This document shows, in pieces, positions 1,020-45,076 of a stretch of 64,000 nt of DNA. The first letter of the stretch is position 1. Each line of letters opens with the position of its first letter. The notes beneath the pieces are model-generated. The model saw only the letters and a list, made by a program, of their open reading frames with translations. It did not search any database and had not been told where the DNA came from. Source of the DNA: Candidatus Methanosuratincola subterraneus (GTDB lineage Archaea; Thermoproteota; Methanomethylicia; Methanomethylicales; Methanomethylicaceae); the NCBI GenBank assembly GCA_004028775.1, contig RXGA01000002.1, positions 62,001-126,000 of the forward strand, given 5' to 3'. Position numbers and translations under genes: made by a program.

Positions 1020-1919
1020 TCACTGATTGCGAGGCATCGGGTAGTTGAATATTATATACTCCGGGATCCTCCCCCTGCCGTCCCCCAGGCACGAGATCGC
1101 CCTTGCAGCCATCGCAACCCTGAATTGCCCCCTTGATATGTAATCGCGGTAAAGACCCTCCACCAGCGGGCTGGAGGAGTTGCTCATCACGACCTTGCAC
1201 CCCCTCCCGTCCAGATCCCTGAATGCCTCAGCAAGCGCCCGCTGGTCCTCCTCGGAGAATGAATCGGGCGTGTACTGCGTGAAAGAGGATGTTCGGCTGA
1301 GCGGTTGGTATGGAGGGTCAAAGTAGACGAGGTCTCCGGCTCTAGCCAGCTTCACCGCCTCCCTGTAGTCGCAGCACATTATCTCAACCCATCTCTGATC
1401 AAGCGCCCTGCTCACAGCCCTTAGGTTCGCCTCGTCGAAGAGCGAGGGGGAGTCATACCGACCCCAAGGGACATTGAACTCCCCCTTCGAGTTAACTCGG
1501 TAGAGCCCGTTGAAGCAGGTCTTGTTCAGGTATATCAGCAGCGCAGCCTTCTCGACATTCTTCTCAAGTCCATTCTTCAGCCTGATCTTGTTGAACGAAG
1601 GCCGTGCGACCTCGTAGAAGAAGTCCTTCGCTCCGACATACTTCTGGTAGTACTCCAGCCGGGAGATCAGGGCGTCGAGCTCGTCCCTGACCACGACATA
1701 GCAGTTTATCAGGTCCCTGTTCAGATCTGAAAGGATGGCGCGCCTCACCTTCCCCATCGAGACGAGCCTGAAGAAGAGCGCGCCGCCTCCGAGGAAAGGC
1801 TCAAAGTAAGTCCCGAAGTCCTCCGGCATGCACCCCACGATGTTGTCCAGCAGCTGGGACTTTCCGCCAGCCCACTTAAGGAATGGGTAGATTGGGGGGG
1901 AGGAAGAGTTGCCTGGCAT
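1020..1919 (-). CDS. D12-class DNA adenine N6-methyltransferase (GC-rich copy)
   Basis: A 299-residue D12-class (Dam/DpnM-like) N6-adenine methyltransferase. Seen: the SAM-binding motif FLKWAGGKSQLL near residue 13, the FLGGGALFF motif near residue 44, and the catalytic DPPY near residue 200 followed by QPLSRTSSFTQY. It would transfer methyl from SAM to adenine in a short recognition site, GATC in many relatives, though the site cannot be read here. No cognate restriction endonuclease is adjacent. Composition matches the flanking chromosome, unlike the second D12 enzyme at 33035-33862, so this is likely the resident copy. Confidence 0.92.
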   Translation of the reverse strand: MPGNSSSPPIYPFLKWAGGKSQLLDNIVGCMPEDFGTYFEPFLGGGALFFRLVSMGKVRRAILSDLNRDLINCYVVVRDELDALISRLEYYQKYVGAKDFFYEVARPSFNKIRLKNGLEKNVEKAALLIYLNKTCFNGLYRVNSKGEFNVPWGRYDSPSLFDEANLRAVSRALDQRWVEIMCCDYREAVKLARAGDLVYFDPPYQPLSRTSSFTQYTPDSFSEEDQRALAEAFRDLDGRGCKVVMSNSSSPLVEGLYRDYISRGQFRVAMAARAISCLGDGRGRIPEYIIFNYPMPRNQ

Positions 1920-25655: not shown

Positions 25656-27017
25656 ATGGTGAGGCTCTCATTCTACGGCGGGGTCGGCGAGATAGGCGGG
25701 AACAAGATCCTTGTTGAGGAGCGGGGCACGAAAATTTTCCTTGACTTCGGGCAGTCGTTCACCTTTGGGGCGGGCTTTTTTGTCGACTATCTGCAGCCCA
25801 GAACCCTGAGCATGCTGAAGGACCTCCTCGAGTTCGACCTCCTGCCCAGGATCAAGGGGCTCTACGCGGAGGGGCTGCTTGAAAGGACCGGGATCGGATA
25901 CACTGAGCCGGAGATAGATGCGGTCCTGCTCTCGCATGCGCACTTCGACCACTGCCAGCACATCTGCTACATCGACCCGAAGATACCCGTCTTCCTGGGG
26001 GAGGGGACTAAGATATTCCTCGAGTGCATGGAGGAGATCTCCTACAGCTGCAAGTACGGCGACCACGACTACCGCACGTTCAGGAGCGGCGCTAAGATAA
26101 AGGCAGGAGGGATGCGGATCGAGCCGGTGCACGTCGACCACTCGATCCCCGGTGCCTACGGTTATCTGGTCGAGACTTCAGCGGGCGTGATCGCGTACAC
26201 GGGGGACCTGAGGGCGCACGGGCCCAGGAAGGACATGACCGAGGAGTTCGTGGAGAAGGCAGCAGCTGCCGAGCCAGTGGCGCTCATCTGCGAGGGGACG
26301 AGGATGGAGGAGGTCGAGAGGAGGCAGAACTATTCGGAGGCTCAGGTCAGGGAGAAGGGCGAGGAGATCGTGGGCGGGACGGACAAGATCGTATTTGTGA
26401 TGAGGTACAGCCGGGACATTGACCGGTTCAGGACCTTCTACGAGATCGCAAAGGCGAACGGCAGGGATCTGGTGATCTCGCCCAAGAGTGCATACTTGCT
26501 GGGCAGGCTCATAGAGGACGAGCATCTGGACGTGCCGGACCCGCGCACTGACGGGGCCATACGGGTCTATTACAGGAGGAAGAAGAGCGGCACCTACGAC
26601 GATTCGGACTACTACAAGTGGGAGAGGGAGTACCTGGACAGGATGGTGACTTGCGAGGAAATCAGGAAGAGGCAGAAGGAGTATTTGATGGAGCTCGACT
26701 TTTACCAGCTGACCGAGCTCATAGACATCAGGCCGGAGAGGGGGGCGCACCTGATCAGGAGCATGAGCGAGCCGTTCAGCGACGAAGACCTCTCGGAGGA
26801 GGTGCTCCAGAACTGGGTGGAGCACTTCGGGCTGGAGTTCCACCAGATGCACGCCTCGGGGCACCTGAGCAGGGAGCAGCTCGAGTGGCTGGTTGATACG
26901 ATTGCGCCCAAGAAGATATTCCCGGTGCACACGGAGAACCCGCAGCTGTTCAAGAAGAGATGGAAGAATGTTGAAAGTTTTAAATGTGGAAAGCAATTAA
27001 ATTTTGATTTTAAATGA
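25656..27017 (+). CDS. RNase J-like metallo-beta-lactamase/beta-CASP nuclease
   Basis: A 453-residue MBL-fold ribonuclease of the archaeal RNase J-like group. Motif I GGVGEIGGNKILVE leads; the zinc motif SHAHFDHCQH sits near residue 92; later VHVDHSIPGAYGYLVE and YTGDLRAHG complete the metal site; ASGHLSREQLEW and FPVHTENP near the C-terminus are beta-CASP motifs. Probably a 5'-3' exo/endonuclease in RNA decay. The final 15 or so codons, from KNVESFKCG on, are AT-rich, unlike the rest of the gene, marking the left edge of the AT-rich island inside the coding sequence. Confidence 0.9.
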   Translation: MVRLSFYGGVGEIGGNKILVEERGTKIFLDFGQSFTFGAGFFVDYLQPRTLSMLKDLLEFDLLPRIKGLYAEGLLERTGIGYTEPEIDAVLLSHAHFDHCQHICYIDPKIPVFLGEGTKIFLECMEEISYSCKYGDHDYRTFRSGAKIKAGGMRIEPVHVDHSIPGAYGYLVETSAGVIAYTGDLRAHGPRKDMTEEFVEKAAAAEPVALICEGTRMEEVERRQNYSEAQVREKGEEIVGGTDKIVFVMRYSRDIDRFRTFYEIAKANGRDLVISPKSAYLLGRLIEDEHLDVPDPRTDGAIRVYYRRKKSGTYDDSDYYKWEREYLDRMVTCEEIRKRQKEYLMELDFYQLTELIDIRPERGAHLIRSMSEPFSDEDLSEEVLQNWVEHFGLEFHQMHASGHLSREQLEWLVDTIAPKKIFPVHTENPQLFKKRWKNVESFKCGKQLNFDFK

Positions 27018-27090
27018 AAAAAGGTAAAAATATATTTAAAAAATTCATAAGCAATTTATGCTGTTATCACATTAGTGTCGGTTTGGAAAA

Positions 27091-27100
27091 ATATATAAAT
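27091..27100 (+). promoter_or_regulatory. TATA box of the NurA-HerA-SMC operon
   Basis: GGAAAAATATATAAATATAA contains an A-rich BRE-like element and a strong TATA box. It lies about 28 bases before GTG 27124, consistent with a leaderless or nearly leaderless transcript. It is the only good promoter seen before five same-strand genes. Confidence 0.55.
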
Positions 27101-27123
27101 ATAATGTACATAAAATAATTTCA

Positions 27124-28182
27124 GTGCTGGTTATGTTAAGTCAGGATGAAAATGAGAGGGCAAAGATCAAATTAAACAACGGTTGTCTTATAATTCATCC
27201 AGCATTTAATGAAACGCTTAAAGAACTCGGAAGGAAGAAAATAAGATTACCGAAAGAGGTTACTCAAATTGAAATAGATTTTAGTTCTTATGGGTATCCG
27301 GTTAATGGTAGACTTGTTTCAGGCATTGAGGAACCTGGAAAATTCGAGCTTGATTGTAGAAAAGGACAGAAATTCTGTGATCAGAATAAAATCTGTGCCT
27401 ATGACGAATCAATAAACAAATTTGAAGGACTTGAAGGCACGGGATTTCTTACATCACATTCGATGATAATTCACGGGGATATGGACTATATCCCGATAAA
27501 CCTCTTAACTTTTTATTTCTATACAAGGTCATTATATCTAACTAAAAATTCAAAATATATTAAATTTTCAAACGATTTCGAGGTAGATTCAAAGAGAGAT
27601 TACGTTTCGGATCGTGAGAAATTACTAGTTGAAAATGTCCCAGAAGACTGCACCATTTTTATCGATGGTCCACTTATTGGAGGGCAGATGACAAAATATA
27701 CGTTGGATTTGAATGAGGCTCTTCTCAAAAAGAATTCAATTCCGATATTTTTTGTTAAAAACAGCAGAAGTAATCTGGTCGTAGACAATGTAGAAGAACT
27801 CAAAAGCAAATATAACTCAGATATGCATTGGGCATATAGCTATCTAAAACCTGGTGAAAGAACGAAATTCTTTAGGTATGTGGATAAAGAAAATTGTAAT
27901 TTTGCAAAAATTTTCTGTTACCTAAAAGCATTTGAAAGTAGTCCTTGCAGAATAGAAATAGACATAAATACCTTCAAAAAATACAAGGATGAGATCAATC
28001 AAATAATGGACCTAGCATATTATTTATTAATTGCACAAGGAGATTTGCATAACCCACAAATACGATCGATAGCTATTGCAGAGAAATATGCTAGAGCAAC
28101 TTTAAAACTTATAAATTTTGAAGAACTAATTAAAACCCTTGGAATTACCCCTACAATAAATCAAGAGAGGTTTGCGTGGTAA
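27124..28182 (+). CDS. NurA-like nuclease, first gene of the island operon
   Basis: A 352-residue protein that resembles the NurA 5'-3' nuclease. Matches are in the C-terminal two-thirds: IFIDGPLIGG near 178-187 (acidic motif), PIFFVKNSRSN near 207-217 (lysine motif), FCYLKAFESSPCRIEID near 264-280 (Y/R/E motif), and a last helix with NPQIRSIAIAEKYAR. The expected N-terminal DGS is not seen; IEIDFSSYG near 49-57 may replace it. It is followed by HerA, NurA's usual partner, with a seven-base overlap. Start GTG 27124 fits the TATA spacing; ATG 27133 is the alternative. Coding is AT-rich, unlike flanking genes. Confidence 0.62.
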   Translation: MLVMLSQDENERAKIKLNNGCLIIHPAFNETLKELGRKKIRLPKEVTQIEIDFSSYGYPVNGRLVSGIEEPGKFELDCRKGQKFCDQNKICAYDESINKFEGLEGTGFLTSHSMIIHGDMDYIPINLLTFYFYTRSLYLTKNSKYIKFSNDFEVDSKRDYVSDREKLLVENVPEDCTIFIDGPLIGGQMTKYTLDLNEALLKKNSIPIFFVKNSRSNLVVDNVEELKSKYNSDMHWAYSYLKPGERTKFFRYVDKENCNFAKIFCYLKAFESSPCRIEIDINTFKKYKDEINQIMDLAYYLLIAQGDLHNPQIRSIAIAEKYARATLKLINFEELIKTLGITPTINQERFAW

Positions 28183-29741
28183 AAATGTGGATAGTAGTCG
28201 GTGAAGAAAAAGGAAAAATTAAGCTTGTTTCATCAAAGGAAGTGAATGCAATTCTGCCTAAAGGGGCATTCCTCACGATAGAAGATGAGGAAAGAAAACA
28301 TGTTTTAATGGTTACTGACAGCCAACAATTTGAACCTTATTCACCATCACCCATGTTAGCGGATATGAATTTATCTCCACTCAAACAGGATCAAAAATGT
28401 CAAAACATAATACATGGAATAAGAATTGGAGACATACCCGAACGAACCGACGGGTTCATCGATTTTATACGACCACAGTCGCTTGCAAGGCGTTCGAGCC
28501 AAGAGGAGATCGATTCGGTTTTAGGATTAAAAAACACAGGGCCTGCGTTATTTCTTGCTACAGTTCATGGCGGAAAGAATCAGATTCTTAGAGATGAAAA
28601 AGGAAACCCCATAAAGGTTTGCTTTCCAACCGAAGCATTTTACCATCAGATACTAATCTGCGGAAAAACGGGGAGTGGAAAAACTGTAGCCTCCAAATAT
28701 TTAGCGCAGTATTTTGTTGAGGAAATGGAAAATTTTGGGGCAGTATTGGCGGTTAATGTGAAAGATGTTGATTTTTTAAGGATGGATAAACCTTCAGTCA
28801 CAAATAATCCAGATGTTTTAAATGAATGGAAGTTTTTGGGTAAAAACGCCAGTGGAATTAAGAATTTTGTTGTATATTACCCTGCTAATTCGATTATACC
28901 TTCAGGCAATAACGTTAACAGGGATATATGCAGAAAGATAACCCTCGATGTTATGAGGCTTGATCCTGAAGCACTTTCAGGTCTTTTATTAGGCATATCG
29001 GATACAGCAGCGCAACATCTTCCTGGAATTTTCAGAAAATGGCAAGAGGACAATAGAAATGCTAAGAGGCGGATTACGTTTAATGACTTTGTTCAGTATT
29101 TTGCAAGAGGAGAACAAGACAAGTACACTTACGAGACTATGAATTCGAGAAGAGATATTTTGCAAGTAACACTTCCATGGGGCACGTATCAAAACATACT
29201 TCGTAACCTTGAATATGCAATAGAGTTCTTTGATAACGAAGATGCAGAAATTATTGATGCCAAGGACATTCTTGTCCGTGGAAAAATGTCGGTCATAAAT
29301 GTGGCTGGAGAAAAAGGAGCGAAATTCGGAGCGGTGATACTAAGACACCTTCTAAAAGACATTGTGGAAGAGAAAAGAATGGGACTATCAAAAGTTCCGA
29401 TTTTAATACTAATAGATGAAGTCCATCAGTTCTACGATACAAACAGTTCTAAGGAGGCGCTGGGAGAATTAGACACAATATGTAGGACAGGACGTAGTCA
29501 GGAAATAGGTGTCATATTCTCATCCCAAAATCCTTCAGACATACCATCAGGACTTGCAAATGTAATAAACACGAAGATCTTCTTCAAATCAGACAGTTCT
29601 GCAGCGAAATTACACGACATTTCAGTTTCGTCTGAGGAAATATTGACGCTTAGAAAGGGATATGCAATTGCAAATATTCATGGCATACCTCAAGTTAGAG
29701 TTATGAAATTTCCACTAGCATTTGCAGGTGTTTTTGAGTAG
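28176..29741 (+). CDS. HerA-family DNA translocase ATPase
   Basis: A 521-residue FtsK/HerA-superfamily ATPase. Residues 1-150 form the small HAS-barrel-like region; Walker A GKTGSGKT is at 163-170, Walker B ILILIDEVHQF at about 409-419, and TICRTGRSQEIGVIFSSQNPSDIP contains the sensor and arginine-finger region. HerA normally forms a hexamer that drives NurA in DNA end resection. GTG 28176 overlaps the NurA stop and has GAGAGG upstream, so the two are translationally coupled. A Shine-Dalgarno GGAGGAGG follows its stop for the next small gene. Confidence 0.9.
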   Translation: MVKMWIVVGEEKGKIKLVSSKEVNAILPKGAFLTIEDEERKHVLMVTDSQQFEPYSPSPMLADMNLSPLKQDQKCQNIIHGIRIGDIPERTDGFIDFIRPQSLARRSSQEEIDSVLGLKNTGPALFLATVHGGKNQILRDEKGNPIKVCFPTEAFYHQILICGKTGSGKTVASKYLAQYFVEEMENFGAVLAVNVKDVDFLRMDKPSVTNNPDVLNEWKFLGKNASGIKNFVVYYPANSIIPSGNNVNRDICRKITLDVMRLDPEALSGLLLGISDTAAQHLPGIFRKWQEDNRNAKRRITFNDFVQYFARGEQDKYTYETMNSRRDILQVTLPWGTYQNILRNLEYAIEFFDNEDAEIIDAKDILVRGKMSVINVAGEKGAKFGAVILRHLLKDIVEEKRMGLSKVPILILIDEVHQFYDTNSSKEALGELDTICRTGRSQEIGVIFSSQNPSDIPSGLANVINTKIFFKSDSSAAKLHDISVSSEEILTLRKGYAIANIHGIPQVRVMKFPLAFAGVFE

Positions 29742-29752
29742 GAGGAGGAAAT

Positions 29753-29902
29753 ATGGACGAGTATTCAATTGTTGATTTTCTTATGGCACTGACAGAAGAT
29801 AACTTTGAAAAACAGACAATAAAACTAATTTCCGAGGGCTATACTGACGATCTATTATTAGAAAAACTACTTGAAATTATCAAGGGGGAAAAGAAGTGTT
29901 AA
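29753..29902 (+). CDS. 49-aa acidic protein between HerA and SMC-like genes
   Basis: A short frame starting at ATG 29753 behind a perfect GGAGGAGG and ending at TAA 29902, seven bases inside the next gene (GTG 29896). The product is helical and acidic (MDEYSIVDFLMALTEDNFEK then LLLEKLLEIIKGEKKC). Its strong ribosome site and overlap on both coupling sides show it is a real operon member, perhaps a bridging subunit between HerA and the SMC-like ATPase; that role is inference. No family recognised. Confidence 0.75.
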   Translation: MDEYSIVDFLMALTEDNFEKQTIKLISEGYTDDLLLEKLLEIIKGEKKC

Positions 29903-32046
29903 AATACGATTATGTAATTGAGAGAACAACAGGGCCTAGCCAGATAGACAGATTTTCCCCTAATAAAATACCCAAGGAACTCGACAATCTTGTTTTAATC
30001 GAAGGCCCAAATTCGTCTGGTAAAAGTACCTTACTAAATATAATCGCATTGGGACTTTTTGGCAATAAAAGCTCAAAGATCAATTCAGCCTTGCAGGCAA
30101 AAATGAATTCATTATTAGATGCCAAACATCAAAAGTTGCAGTTTTCCTTTGAAATAAAATCTGATTTGGATAAATTGATAATTAGATCTAAGAAAACGGA
30201 TCCTAATAGTTCAGAAATCATAGTTGAAGAAAGTTTGGATGGGGAAAATTTTTCGCCGGTGATTTATGAGAATTTTGAAAAAAAGTATAATTTAATTTAT
30301 GATATTCCAAGTAATCCAACCGAGAGACTGCCCGAACTTCTAAAGGAACTAAGGGATGAACAACGACAATATGGGAACAGGATCAAGGACTTTGGAATGT
30401 TTGTGCATTACACAATACAACAGATAGAAAAATCACGTGATCTTCAACGTTTAAAAGAAGTTGAAGAACGTTTAAAAGAACAACGAGAAAAAAAGAAGAC
30501 TATTGAAGACGAGTTGCCATCAAGTAGAGATTTTTTGAACATGCTTCAAAAAGCAGCATTTATAATGTATTATTATCATTACCTTTCGGAAAAATCCAGA
30601 TTAGAAACACGAAGTGAAGAAATAAAAAAGGCTATCGAAGATATTGATAAAACTGGGAGAAAGGTGGTTAGAGAGAAAATTCAAGAAAAAAGAAAGATAG
30701 GTGAATTAAGCAATAAACTAGCAGAGAATTATAATAAAGTCACTCCTCAATTAGAATCTATTTTACCAAAAAAATTAAAGAAAAGCTTTACAATATGGAA
30801 AGAATTTAATCCTTACACAATTGAACATGACGAATTAACAGATATCGAAATTGAGGCCTCTAACTATATCAAATATATACAAGAAGAAATGGATGAAATT
30901 AGTAAAAATCCAGTTTACAAGGATGTAAGTTCTATAGAGAGAATTCTTGATTTACTAAAAGAATTTGAATATTCTGAGCTAAGGATATCAAAGTTAAATG
31001 TTACAATTCAAGATTTAATCAACATATTAAGAGAAGAAAATGAAAAAAGAAATAGTATAATAAAAAAATATAAAAATTATGATAACATAAATAGAATTTT
31101 AAATGAGATAAAGGGTATTGTAAAAGAGATGAAAGAATCACTAGAAGCTTATAAAAAGGAGAGCGTTGCAGCAGAAGAATATTCCAAAAGTTCCGACTTG
31201 AAGTATTCGCAACTTAATATCGAGCTATCACAGGTTACGAATGAACTTGAGCGTGCAAATAAAAAATGCAGAGAATACCATAGCAGATGTATTTTATTGG
31301 GAATCGAAGCAAAAAAACTTGATGGGCCATACGCGGAAATCCTAAAGGAAATTCCAAAAAATGAACATGTTAAAGAATGTTTAGATTTAGGAGAAGAGAA
31401 TGTACTAAAAACAATAACAGATTTAGAAGGAGAAATTAGCGAAAAACAAAAAGAGATGAGAGCTCTAGAAATTACAATTAAACAATACCAAACAGAAAAA
31501 GAACGCCTAGAAAAATTGGAACCTCACAAATACGAATCGTTTTATAATGAGTTAAATATCATCTATACTAAAGTAAATAGATTGAGTCAAAAATTACTAA
31601 GCATATACAATAATGACCTTAATAATTTAATTAATAATACATTAAAAGAAGATGATTTAAAAAATAATGACAACAGTAGAAAATATTTTGATGAAGTTTC
31701 AAAATATCTTGCTCATAGAATCGGAAATTTTAGACACATAGATAGAACATATAAAGCTAAAACAGTAAATCTAATCTTAAAAACCATAATCACAGAAGAC
31801 GGATCAACAATATATCTCAGTGACATGGGTACAGGTCAAAGTCAAAGTGCATTTCTTCTAAGTTTGTTGAATATCAAAAATGATAACCGAAAAATAATTG
31901 CATTATTTGATGAAATTGCAATGATGGATGATATTTCATTAAAACCAGTTTATGAAAAGATGAAGGAGCTATACTATGAAAAGCGTCTTTTATTAGGAGT
32001 TCTTGTTCAGAAAGGTAATGAAATTAACATTAAATCTCTGATATAG
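29896..32046 (+). CDS. SMC/Rad50-like ATPase with coiled coil, no zinc hook
   Basis: A 716-residue ABC-type ATPase with the SMC/RecN/Rad50 layout: Walker A GPNSSGKST at 37-45; a Lys/Glu-rich coiled coil from about 165 to 560; a degenerate signature SDMGTGQSQS at about 642-651; Walker B IIALFDE near 667-673. The coil lacks a CxxC hook; only CREYHSRC occurs in the middle, so it is not a canonical Rad50, and no Mre11 gene adjoins. Such compact SMC-like proteins are frequent in antiviral systems (Lamassu-, ABC-3C- or Wadjet-type). GTG start preceded by AAGGGGG. Confidence 0.88.
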   Translation: MLKYDYVIERTTGPSQIDRFSPNKIPKELDNLVLIEGPNSSGKSTLLNIIALGLFGNKSSKINSALQAKMNSLLDAKHQKLQFSFEIKSDLDKLIIRSKKTDPNSSEIIVEESLDGENFSPVIYENFEKKYNLIYDIPSNPTERLPELLKELRDEQRQYGNRIKDFGMFVHYTIQQIEKSRDLQRLKEVEERLKEQREKKKTIEDELPSSRDFLNMLQKAAFIMYYYHYLSEKSRLETRSEEIKKAIEDIDKTGRKVVREKIQEKRKIGELSNKLAENYNKVTPQLESILPKKLKKSFTIWKEFNPYTIEHDELTDIEIEASNYIKYIQEEMDEISKNPVYKDVSSIERILDLLKEFEYSELRISKLNVTIQDLINILREENEKRNSIIKKYKNYDNINRILNEIKGIVKEMKESLEAYKKESVAAEEYSKSSDLKYSQLNIELSQVTNELERANKKCREYHSRCILLGIEAKKLDGPYAEILKEIPKNEHVKECLDLGEENVLKTITDLEGEISEKQKEMRALEITIKQYQTEKERLEKLEPHKYESFYNELNIIYTKVNRLSQKLLSIYNNDLNNLINNTLKEDDLKNNDNSRKYFDEVSKYLAHRIGNFRHIDRTYKAKTVNLILKTIITEDGSTIYLSDMGTGQSQSAFLLSLLNIKNDNRKIIALFDEIAMMDDISLKPVYEKMKELYYEKRLLLGVLVQKGNEINIKSLI

Positions 32047-32967
32047 GTGGAAAAAATGATTTCTGACGATTACCTAAACCAATTTTATATATTATTAAAA
32101 AATAAACTTAAAAGAGAGAGAAAAATAAAAAACAACTCAGTTTTCATTACATTCCTTGAAATAAATAGTACTTCAAGATTCAGGTTATTAAACGAGGCCA
32201 CCATCAATTCTAACGAAATCCCGAAAAATGTTCTTAATTTGCTTCTAGATAAAAACTACATTCAGGCGCTTACTAGTATAGGAAATTATGCAATTACTGC
32301 AAAAGGCGTATGGTATTGTGAAAATCAGTTAAAATTGATTGATGAAGAAAAGCTATTATCATACATTAATAAAAAATTTTTTACGGATGGCCAAAAAAAT
32401 AGTCAAGAAAAGACAACGCTGGACGATAAGGAAAAAATCATACTTTTTACAATGATATCTGCAAGAGCTTTTTCAGAGAAATCTTCAGTAAATTTGAAAC
32501 CAAGCGAAAATAAAAGAGACAAATGGTTGGAATTACTTGAAGCATCCTATGATTTTCTTAAAAATTTTGGAAAAATAAATAAAATTAGAAAAGAAGACCT
32601 TTTTAAGAAAATGGGAAACGAACATATAGCTAGCAGCATCTTTAGACATAATAATCGCATGGCACAAAAAACTAAATTGATCTATAAATATACTGGAGAT
32701 TATGAATATTTCTTAGACATTTACTCAAATTATGAGTTTTCAACTGAAAAGATGAGTTATCTATTTTGGAAGCTGTTCCAAGGAGAGCTATCAGAAGAAA
32801 TGATCGATAAGATAATAGAACATTGTAATAGAATCTCAAAAAATGAGAGCATATATCTATTTAATCTCAGCGAACATATTTTTTCTTTGCCATGTTACGA
32901 CAATAAATTAAGAGATAGTTTATTAGATTCAATCATATCTAGATCTAAATGGGAAAATATTGGCTAA
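32047..32967 (+). CDS. Unrecognised 306-aa protein, last gene of the island operon
   Basis: The frame begins at GTG 32047 directly after the SMC-like stop (ATG 32056 is the alternative). The product is Lys/Ile/Asn-rich; residues 40-110 resemble a winged helix ending in YAITAKGVWYCENQL, and the remainder is all-helical. No catalytic motif is visible. Zero-base spacing suggests coupled expression with the SMC-like ATPase, and its place is that of an accessory or adaptor subunit in SMC-containing defence systems. Function unknown. Confidence 0.72.
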   Translation: MEKMISDDYLNQFYILLKNKLKRERKIKNNSVFITFLEINSTSRFRLLNEATINSNEIPKNVLNLLLDKNYIQALTSIGNYAITAKGVWYCENQLKLIDEEKLLSYINKKFFTDGQKNSQEKTTLDDKEKIILFTMISARAFSEKSSVNLKPSENKRDKWLELLEASYDFLKNFGKINKIRKEDLFKKMGNEHIASSIFRHNNRMAQKTKLIYKYTGDYEYFLDIYSNYEFSTEKMSYLFWKLFQGELSEEMIDKIIEHCNRISKNESIYLFNLSEHIFSLPCYDNKLRDSLLDSIISRSKWENIG

Positions 32968-33034
32968 TTATATTTTAATGATTTAAACAATTAATGAAAT
33001 TTCTATATTATTATAATCTATCATTATACATAAA

Positions 33035-33862
33035 TTATACAATATTTGTAAGAAATAACTCTTTACCTTTTACAGTTTTCTTCCCGTTAACATTTGTCAT
33101 ACCATAGTGCATTTCCCATGACTCAATACGTGCAAATCCAAATAAATTATGAATTAGCTCTGAATCATCATAAGTGATAAGCCATTTATGCTTGCATTCA
33201 CGAACTCTTTCAGAAAATTTTTCATGATCAAAGGATTTATGAAGTGCCCCTTTTTTTCCATAAAGCCCTTCTTTTCTAGTTTTCCAATATGGCGGATCCA
33301 TGAAGAGGAGCACATTTTTTCCTTCTTTTGCAAGTACTGATTCATAACTATCATTTGTAATTTTAACATCTTTTAGCAATAAAGATAAATTTTTAAGTTT
33401 TGAAATGTTAGAAATTGTAAATCTTTTTTTAAATGCTTCTGATGAATATCCTCCAGAATCAACTGTCCCAGAATAAGTAATACGATTCAATACATAAAAT
33501 CTTACGGCTTTATAAAACTCATCTTTGCAAAATTCCTGATTTAAATATGGCAACGACATCATTTCATTAAAGAGTAATTTACCATCCTGATGGGTATTTT
33601 TAATGCGGGTTACCTCAGCGACGAACTCGTCTACATTTTTCTTTACCTGATTCCAAAAGCAAATCAAATCACTGTTTAAATCATTAATCCAATATTTTGC
33701 ATTAGGCCGTAATTGTTTTAGAGCGATGAAAACTGACCCCCCGCCCACAAAAGGCTCTCTATATTCATCAAAATCTATTGATGTTAAATGAGGCAAAATT
33801 TTATTGAGGGCTTTTGATTTGCCACCAGGATATCTAAGAGGACTCTTTATTTTTTGGGACAT
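33035..33862 (-). CDS. D12-class DNA adenine methyltransferase (AT-rich island copy)
   Basis: A 275-residue D12 adenine methylase convergent with the NurA-HerA-SMC operon. SAM motif LRYPGGKSKALNKI near residue 7, FVGGGSVFIALKQL near 39, catalytic FMDPPYWKTRKEG near 191, and a typical C-terminal ITYDDSELI. Its AT-rich codons match the island. It could mark host DNA so that the operon spares it, as in modification-linked defence, or be an independent passenger. ATG 33862 chosen. Confidence 0.9.
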   Translation of the reverse strand: MSQKIKSPLRYPGGKSKALNKILPHLTSIDFDEYREPFVGGGSVFIALKQLRPNAKYWINDLNSDLICFWNQVKKNVDEFVAEVTRIKNTHQDGKLLFNEMMSLPYLNQEFCKDEFYKAVRFYVLNRITYSGTVDSGGYSSEAFKKRFTISNISKLKNLSLLLKDVKITNDSYESVLAKEGKNVLLFMDPPYWKTRKEGLYGKKGALHKSFDHEKFSERVRECKHKWLITYDDSELIHNLFGFARIESWEMHYGMTNVNGKKTVKGKELFLTNIV

Positions 33863-44292: not shown

Positions 44293-44763
44293 ATGAAGGT
44301 CTTGGTCGTCTACGACTCTGTCTCGCCCTCCAAGGTCACGATGAGGGTTGCGCAGACCATCGCAGAAGAGATGAAGGCAAAAGGGGCGGACGCAGACTGC
44401 CTCTACTGCAAGGATTTCGACAGGGAGAGAGTGAAGGAATATGGCTGCCTGATAGTTGGCGCGCCCACAATGGCATTCCAACCATCGAAAGACATCACCC
44501 GGCTCCTCGATGAGATCAGAACGGAGGATGTGAAGGACAAGAAGGGCGCGGCATTCGACACGCAGATCAAGTCGGCGCTGAGCGGGAACGCAGCCAAGGG
44601 GATCGAGAAGAGGCTTTCGGGGCTGGGCGCAACCATATTCAAGCCCCATCTTGTCGCATACGTCGAAGGGAGGGGCAAGAACACATGGGAGCTCAGGGAG
44701 GGAGAGCTGGAGAAGGTCAAGAAATGGGCGCAGGGGGCGGCAGAGGCTATCCTTTCGGGCTGA
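44293..44763 (+). CDS. Flavodoxin-domain protein
   Basis: A 156-residue flavodoxin. The P-loop VVYDSVSPSKVTMRVA near residue 5 binds FMN phosphate; VGAPTMAFQPS near 56 is the ring-binding loop and KKGAAFDTQI the later strand. It has no clear partner nearby; may carry electrons or relate to heme/menaquinone reduction. ATG 44293 is preceded by AGGGAA. The P-loop substitutes S-P-S-K for the usual T-G-N-T pattern. Confidence 0.85.
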   Translation: MKVLVVYDSVSPSKVTMRVAQTIAEEMKAKGADADCLYCKDFDRERVKEYGCLIVGAPTMAFQPSKDITRLLDEIRTEDVKDKKGAAFDTQIKSALSGNAAKGIEKRLSGLGATIFKPHLVAYVEGRGKNTWELREGELEKVKKWAQGAAEAILSG

Positions 44764-44959
44764 AGAAGAAAAAAGGCGATGGAAGAAAGGGGCCCTCATT
44801 ACAGCCCAGTGCACATTTATCGGATAATCCAGGTTTGCTTTGCGCCACGGAAGAGCTGGTCCGGAAAGACCGTGCGCCAAAGCGCATGATAAATAGCCCT
44901 GCACGTTTAAAAATAATCAAAATAAGCAAAATTTAGAAGAGGTTAAGTTCTGCACGCGC
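44764..44959. other. Intergenic region without a supported gene
   Basis: No credible frame on either strand. The stretch contains GAAGAAGAAAAAAGG just after the flavodoxin stop and several T-rich and A-rich runs near 44900-44935, possibly serving transcript termination for both sides. Confidence 0.4.
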
Positions 44960-45076
44960 CTACTTCTTAGCAACTACCCAACTCATCGTCTTCCTGCGCG
45001 GCTTCTTGAAGGCGCCGCCCGTAATTCGCCTTTTCCTGTCAAACTTCTTCTTCCAGTGCCCTGTAGATTCTGGCAT
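44960..45076 (-). CDS. 38-aa highly basic protein
   Basis: A short frame with ATG 45076 and TAG 44960, GGAG about ten bases upstream. The product starts MPESTGHWKKKFDRKR and continues with RITGGAFKKPRRKTMSW, about 40 percent Lys/Arg, resembling a nucleic-acid-binding tail or small ribosomal protein, although no known archaeal r-protein is recognised. It occupies a 490-base gap with no other gene. Divergent from the PadR gene. Confidence 0.45.
   Translation of the reverse strand: MPESTGHWKKKFDRKRRITGGAFKKPRRKTMSWVVAKK

Follow-up and report, generated by a model that had tools for sequence, protein, structure and literature searches.

We analysed a 64,000-nucleotide stretch of the genome of Candidatus Methanosuratincola subterraneus (contig RXGA01000002.1, positions 62,001 to 126,000 of the forward strand), hereafter the window, which contains an operon of five genes facing a convergent gene for a D12-class DNA methyltransferase. 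The operon encodes a NurA-family nuclease, a HerA-family translocase, a protein of 49 amino acids (aa), an SMC/Rad50-like ATPase and a protein of 306 aa. A preliminary description made from the letters of the sequence had proposed this arrangement, and all six open reading frames (ORFs) were found where it placed them, with the overlaps and abutment it described; only the start of the operon is corrected, from 27018 to 27124.

Gene layout and conserved motifs

The whole operon (27124–32967, plus strand) is AT-rich and lies in the compositional island that had been described, with a GC content of 0.33 in the core (about 0.28–0.37 across the block) against about 0.57 in the flanks. A probable archaeal TATA-box region (AAAAATATATAAATATAATG, 27087–27106, plus strand) is predicted 18–37 bases 5′ of the NurA start, and with this placement the operon mRNA would be leaderless. 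The NurA-family nuclease (352 aa, 27124–28182) has a GTG start and an in-frame ATG at 27133; its ORF overlaps by 7 bp that of the HerA-family hexameric DNA translocase (521 aa, 28176–29741; Pfam HerA_C 2.1e-8, DUF87 8.4e-8). A strong Shine-Dalgarno sequence (AGGAGGAGGA, 29740–29749) stands ahead of the ORF for the 49-aa protein (29753–29902), which is acidic and probably a helical linker or adaptor. A second 7-bp overlap joins this small ORF to the gene for the SMC/Rad50-like coiled-coil ABC ATPase (716 aa, 29896–32046; Pfam AAA_23, a P-loop ABC-type head, 2.3e-6), the end of which is abutted by the ORF for its 306-aa partner (32047–32967). Neither the 49-aa nor the 306-aa protein gave a significant Pfam match. 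The convergent gene (33035–33862, minus strand) encodes an adenine-N6 methyltransferase of 275 aa with an intact DPPY motif (Pfam MethyltransfD12 3.1e-39, PADLOC MTase_II 5.1e-110).

The cassette NurA matches the Pfam family PF09376 at 4.2e-12, with a score of 46.5 bits against a cut-off of 21, and 16 of 16 relatives match the NurA family at E ≤ 0.01. D94, E95, S96, D181, G182 and P183 are invariant across the 16 members and E104 is nearly so, as would be expected if the acidic active site were intact. When the cassette NurA profile is aligned with the host's canonical NurA, the alignment is confined to the IDG motif, in which D181 has its counterpart; the remaining residues presumably map onto the canonical enzyme as well. 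Searching PDB sequences with the NurA profile gave no match. HerA carries a Walker A motif (GKTGSGKT), a Walker B motif (LIDEVH), an SSQNP sensor with Q451, and R437/R440; these residues are conserved in four divergent members and are of the kind used for defining the HerA/FtsK clade (PMC10853773). Its match in PDB is to HerA 4d2i (1.2e-9).

In the SMC-like ATPase the Walker A (GPNSSGKST), signature (GTGQS) and Walker B (IIALFDEI) motifs are present, and all three are found in most members of the family, with a deviation from the Walker A pattern in the protein of a viral contig (L021). The preliminary description had noted a coil without CxxC, which holds across the family: none of 12 cassette SMC-like ATPases has the hook, whereas the canonical Rad50 of the host has CPTC. 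A conserved apex segment at about residues 355–385 (consensus IPG...EFI..LK) lies at the tip of the coil in place of the hook and is possibly a dimerisation element. An AlphaFold2 model of the ATPase (predicted local distance difference test score, pLDDT, 87) matches Rad50, Smc5/6, MukB, Wadjet JetC and LmuB, with Rad50 as the nearest fold; a PDB sequence search with the SMC profile gave mostly coiled-coil and P-loop noise. The AlphaFold2 model of the 306-aa protein is likewise confident (pLDDT 88.7) and places a fold like a winged helix-turn-helix (wHTH) in the N-terminal half. The earlier assignment as a winged-helix protein thus holds for that half, while the remainder is mostly helical and makes the protein more than a plain winged helix. 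No PDB or BFVD entry matched this model at E < 0.001, Lamassu complexes being included in the PDB library.

Recurrence and horizontal spread of the five-gene unit

A search of a public genome collection with the NurA profile yielded 12 loci, one identical to L008, from Methanoperedens, Methanosarcinales, Nanoarchaeia, Thermoplasmatota, Asgard-type archaea, Neobacillus, Mucilaginibacter, Neomarinimicrobiota and Bathycorpusculum. The viral collection added one further locus (L021) and the host phylum three more; several of the loci overall are contigs of metagenome-assembled genomes. The order NurA-HerA-SMC-306 is kept in 12 complete cassettes from archaea, bacteria and one viral contig, the window included, and on incomplete contigs the same order is followed as far as the sequence extends. 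At one locus (L015) the fifth gene was identified solely from where it lies and from an alignment at 17% identity. At 14 of the 15 loci examined the HerA and SMC genes are separated by a small ORF of 45–60 aa, whose hydrophobic residues follow a recurring pattern. Since the gene order is kept in the complete loci and the small ORF in nearly all, the operon is not a chance arrangement, and the five genes form a conserved unit that recurs in other genomes. Within the host phylum the NurA and 306 profiles each match the identical 4 of 398 genomes (~1%).

The cassette copies have been acquired horizontally. The MBL gene upstream of the cassette (25656–27017) is syntenic in two genomes of the same genus, in which the cassette is absent at this place; one of the two (G046) carries a divergent cassette about 18 kb off, at the position that corresponds to window 44763/44960. 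Compared with the window copy, NurA is 65% identical in a genome of another family (G367), 58% in Methanosarcinales and 49% in Neobacillus, and because the same-genus copy, at 36%, is more distant than the latter two, horizontal transfer is indicated. The cassette core is AT-richer than its own distant flanks in 12 of 12 loci. A Phage_Mu_F gene is present on the viral contig L021 and an IS21-type transposase pair at L017. Similarity searches of plasmid and phage collections gave no match, the sole viral hit being one viral contig, and a plasmid or phage origin by similarity was rejected on this result. No convincing direct repeats were seen at the ends of the AT-rich island.

The insertion site in G046 (window 44763–44960 and L007 4813–15241) is possibly an integration hot spot. 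Elsewhere in the window, the segment 57977–64000 holds a phage-tail-sheath gene (PF04984) followed by more tail-like ORFs, and these genes may belong to a contractile injection system or a provirus tail module.

The proteins of the cassette have diverged at different rates, with identities to the window copies of 17–55% for SMC and 306 against 35–73% for NurA and HerA. Correlations between distance matrices are highest for HerA-SMC (r=0.95) and SMC-306 (r=0.92). Because SMC and 306 diverge fastest and together, they may constitute a fast-evolving sensor and NurA-HerA a slower effector, and fast joint divergence is expected of a sensor in an arms race.

A DNA methyltransferase adjoins the cassette

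Wherever the flanks were usable (14 of 14 loci, the window included), a DNA methyltransferase is encoded at most 1.7 kb from the cassette, and the gene often overlaps the cassette or sits within about 130 bp of it. The nearest enzyme is of the D12 class in the window, L006, L008, L010, L011, L014, L015, L017 and L021, of the N6/N4 class in L009, L012 and L016, and HsdM-type in L007 and L013; the N6/N4 calls in L009 and L012 are phmmer matches in which an intact catalytic motif was not detected, and these ORFs may be partial. With the window excluded, the near flanks (about 39.5 kb) hold 14 methyltransferase genes and the more distant ones (about 94 kb) hold 3, densities of about 0.35 and about 0.03 per kb and thus a difference of about tenfold. 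Of 392 phylum genomes, 2 carry the D12 subfamily of the window (matches above 300 bits), and in both it adjoins the cassette. The methyltransferase is therefore linked with the cassette, and the pairing by which restriction-modification in the broad sense is recognised, a methyltransferase encoded with a nuclease, is present at all 14 loci. This proximity strengthens the hypothesis, raised in the preliminary description, that the methylase may mark self DNA.

The host genome has two D12 genes in total; the second (window 1020–1919, minus strand; PF02086 1.5e-61) encodes an adenine methylase of a different subfamily from that of the cassette. The surroundings of the cassettes are rich in restriction-modification genes and include a SIR2 gene and pairs of PD-lambda-5 A/B type. 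The SIR2-like protein, beside the cassette in L006 (9626–12846; SIR2_2 5.2e-9), is encoded with two neighbours of 380 and 346 aa, and this gene group is possibly a second defence operon. In L008 (8432–10755), L014 (1310–3509) and L016 (4590–6847) a ParB-like protein (PADLOC PD-lambda-5_A) and a D12 methylase adjoin the cassette.

Proposed function and comparison with known systems

Archaeal NurA-HerA resects DNA ends together with Mre11-Rad50 (PMC9960219), and the canonical archaeal NurA-HerA-Mre11-Rad50 cluster resembles the cassette in having adjacent NurA and HerA genes with a coiled-coil ABC ATPase. The cassette differs from it in lacking Mre11 and the zinc hook and in adding the 49-aa and 306-aa proteins and the methylase neighbour. 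As the preliminary description had stated, the window cassette contains no gene for Mre11; Rad50 with its CPTC zinc hook, Mre11, HerA and NurA stand side by side on a separate contig of the host genome (assembly 1.51 Mb), so that the SMC-like gene is not the sole Rad50 of the host. Identity of the cassette with the host repair cluster was rejected on these grounds, and the cassette HerA scores 22.8 bits against the curated repair equivalog NF040819, well under the cut-off of 970. The cassette could still be a second, specialised module for end resection or repair, horizontally acquired, in which the SMC-like protein replaces Mre11-Rad50, as the usual partnership of NurA-HerA and the Rad50-like fold of the ATPase would suggest. 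This is very improbable, given the separate canonical set, which argues against housekeeping repair, the occurrence of the cassette in about 1% of phylum genomes, its constant methylase partner and its rapidly diverging SMC and 306 proteins.

We favour a horizontally spread restriction-type defence system, to which we assign a probability of roughly 55%, in which the methylase would mark self DNA and an SMC-306 sensor would license NurA-HerA. The nuclease and the hexameric pump would together move along DNA and degrade it, as they do in archaeal end resection. A dedicated sensor, composed of the hookless SMC-like ATPase, the wHTH-like 306-aa protein and the 49-aa adaptor, would load or license NurA-HerA in place of Mre11-Rad50, and the cassette proteins may act as a single complex divided into sensor and effector parts, in which the 49-aa protein would connect HerA to the ATPase. 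The adjacent methyltransferase, its class varying by locus, would modify host DNA and be cognate to the nuclease, so that only unmodified incoming DNA would trigger loading and destruction. The antiviral role and the discrimination by methylation are thus predicted from the gene set and its neighbourhood. It is conceivable, though at somewhat less than even odds, that this would amount to a new class of methylation-controlled restriction in which SMC-306 inspects DNA and interchangeable methyltransferases (D12, N6/N4, HsdM and PD-lambda-5-like pairs) mark self.

Several observations weigh against a restriction-type system. Because restriction-modification genes gather at any defence or mobile locus, a methylase can stand nearby without a functional role. 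Among seven closely related methylases, distances correlate only moderately with those of NurA (r=0.61, p=0.004, four comparisons), and at the same seven loci no significant correlation with HerA, SMC or 306 was seen; the methylase is perhaps matched to the nuclease. The D12 methylase in L008, L014 and L016 may instead be part of a PD-lambda-5-like pair that is separate from the cassette, and PADLOC has no model for the whole cassette. Finally, in the closest experimentally studied gene set, the TdtA operon of the Thermus element ICETh1, which contains a type II restriction enzyme, a NurA-like gene, the HerA/FtsK-like pump TdtA and an N4/N6 methylase, all genes except the methylase are needed for efficient DNA donation (PMC5365140, PMC7767461).

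ICETh1 shares with the cassette a NurA-like nuclease and a HerA/FtsK pump joined to a methylase or restriction enzyme on an AT-richer mobile element, and the cassette might accordingly serve a mobile element in DNA transfer or donation, the role put forward for the TdtA operon. The mobility and AT-rich composition of the window cassette fit such a role. We consider it improbable, however: accounts of ICETh1 mention neither an SMC-like ATPase nor a small ORF or 306-aa protein, and scans of the cassette neighbours (top 25 Pfam families listed) gave transposases but neither a relaxase nor conjugation machinery.

Wadjet and Lamassu are established cases of SMC-based immunity (reviewed in PMC10586767), and the resemblance to these systems pointed out in the preliminary description is borne out for the ATPase fold but does not extend to membership. 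The window SMC-like protein matches the PADLOC LmuB model at 4.5e-10 and that of Neobacillus at 0.0012, and in a comparison of structures a chain of type II Lamassu is matched at 2.1e-5. No PADLOC match to LmuA or LmuC was obtained in the cassette; Lamassu membership was rejected for this reason and because the 306-aa model matches no PDB chain at E < 0.001. Wadjet was rejected because the JetA kleisin, JetB KITE protein and JetD nuclease have no homologue in the cassette, which shows only a weak match to JetC (0.0079). The likeness to Lamassu (LmuABC) and Wadjet (JetABCD) lies in an SMC/Rad50-type ATPase sensor coupled to an effector, which in the cassette would be NurA-HerA instead. By the same logic the cassette could be an SMC-triggered defence system responding to the topology of DNA, to its ends or to replication intermediates, with the methylases as mere neighbours in a defence island. 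The matches of the ATPase to Rad50, MukB, JetC and LmuB, the differing methylase class among loci and the failure of methylase distances to track SMC or 306 significantly are consistent with such a system; the presence of a methylase at every locus with usable flanks, its strong concentration in the near flanks and the absence of the window's methylase subfamily from the rest of the phylum sample oppose it, and we judge it unlikely, though not markedly so.

Other named systems resemble parts of the cassette. In MADS, mad8 matches HerA at 6.7e-15 and mad3 matches SMC weakly (NCBIfam MAD3, 15 bits vs 420); membership was rejected, the remaining mad proteins being unmatched. DUF4297-HerA, a proven anti-phage HerA-nuclease complex that degrades double-stranded DNA, and Sir2-HerA likewise join a HerA pump to an effector enzyme (PMC11291478) but have another effector, neither SMC nor methylase, and a HerA of weak similarity; the cassette HerA scores 17 bits against a cut-off of 850 in the anti-phage model NF042944, and with NurA as partner in place of DUF4297 or SIR2 this membership was rejected too. 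For ABC-3C, no model of that name matched in the libraries used, which may hold none, and no ABC-3C-type C-terminal-domain effector was seen. The HerA/FtsK capture systems and DndFGH (PMC10853773) offer a pump with a nuclease, wHTH proteins and modification-related domains, with different ATPase partners and architecture; NurA is unmentioned there and in a further account of the capture systems (PMC12839542). PD-lambda-5 (PMC9519451) has the A and B components (ParB-like and D12) seen beside three cassettes but lacks NurA, HerA and SMC, and the window has a D12 methylase alone, of a different subfamily. The cassette fits none of the known systems tested in full. In agreement with the preliminary description, no searched library names the combination and no paper was found that brings together NurA, HerA, SMC and a methylase, although an earlier mention in older comparative work or newer defence catalogues is possible.

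If the restriction-type defence reading is correct, the NurA-HerA end-repair machine has been repurposed as a mobile defence common to archaea and bacteria, with Mre11-Rad50 exchanged for an SMC-type sensor. Such a system would join HerA-nuclease systems, SMC-based sensing as in Wadjet and Lamassu, and methylation-based self recognition, which have so far been handled separately, and the copies in named bacteria (Neobacillus and Mucilaginibacter strains) make it directly testable.

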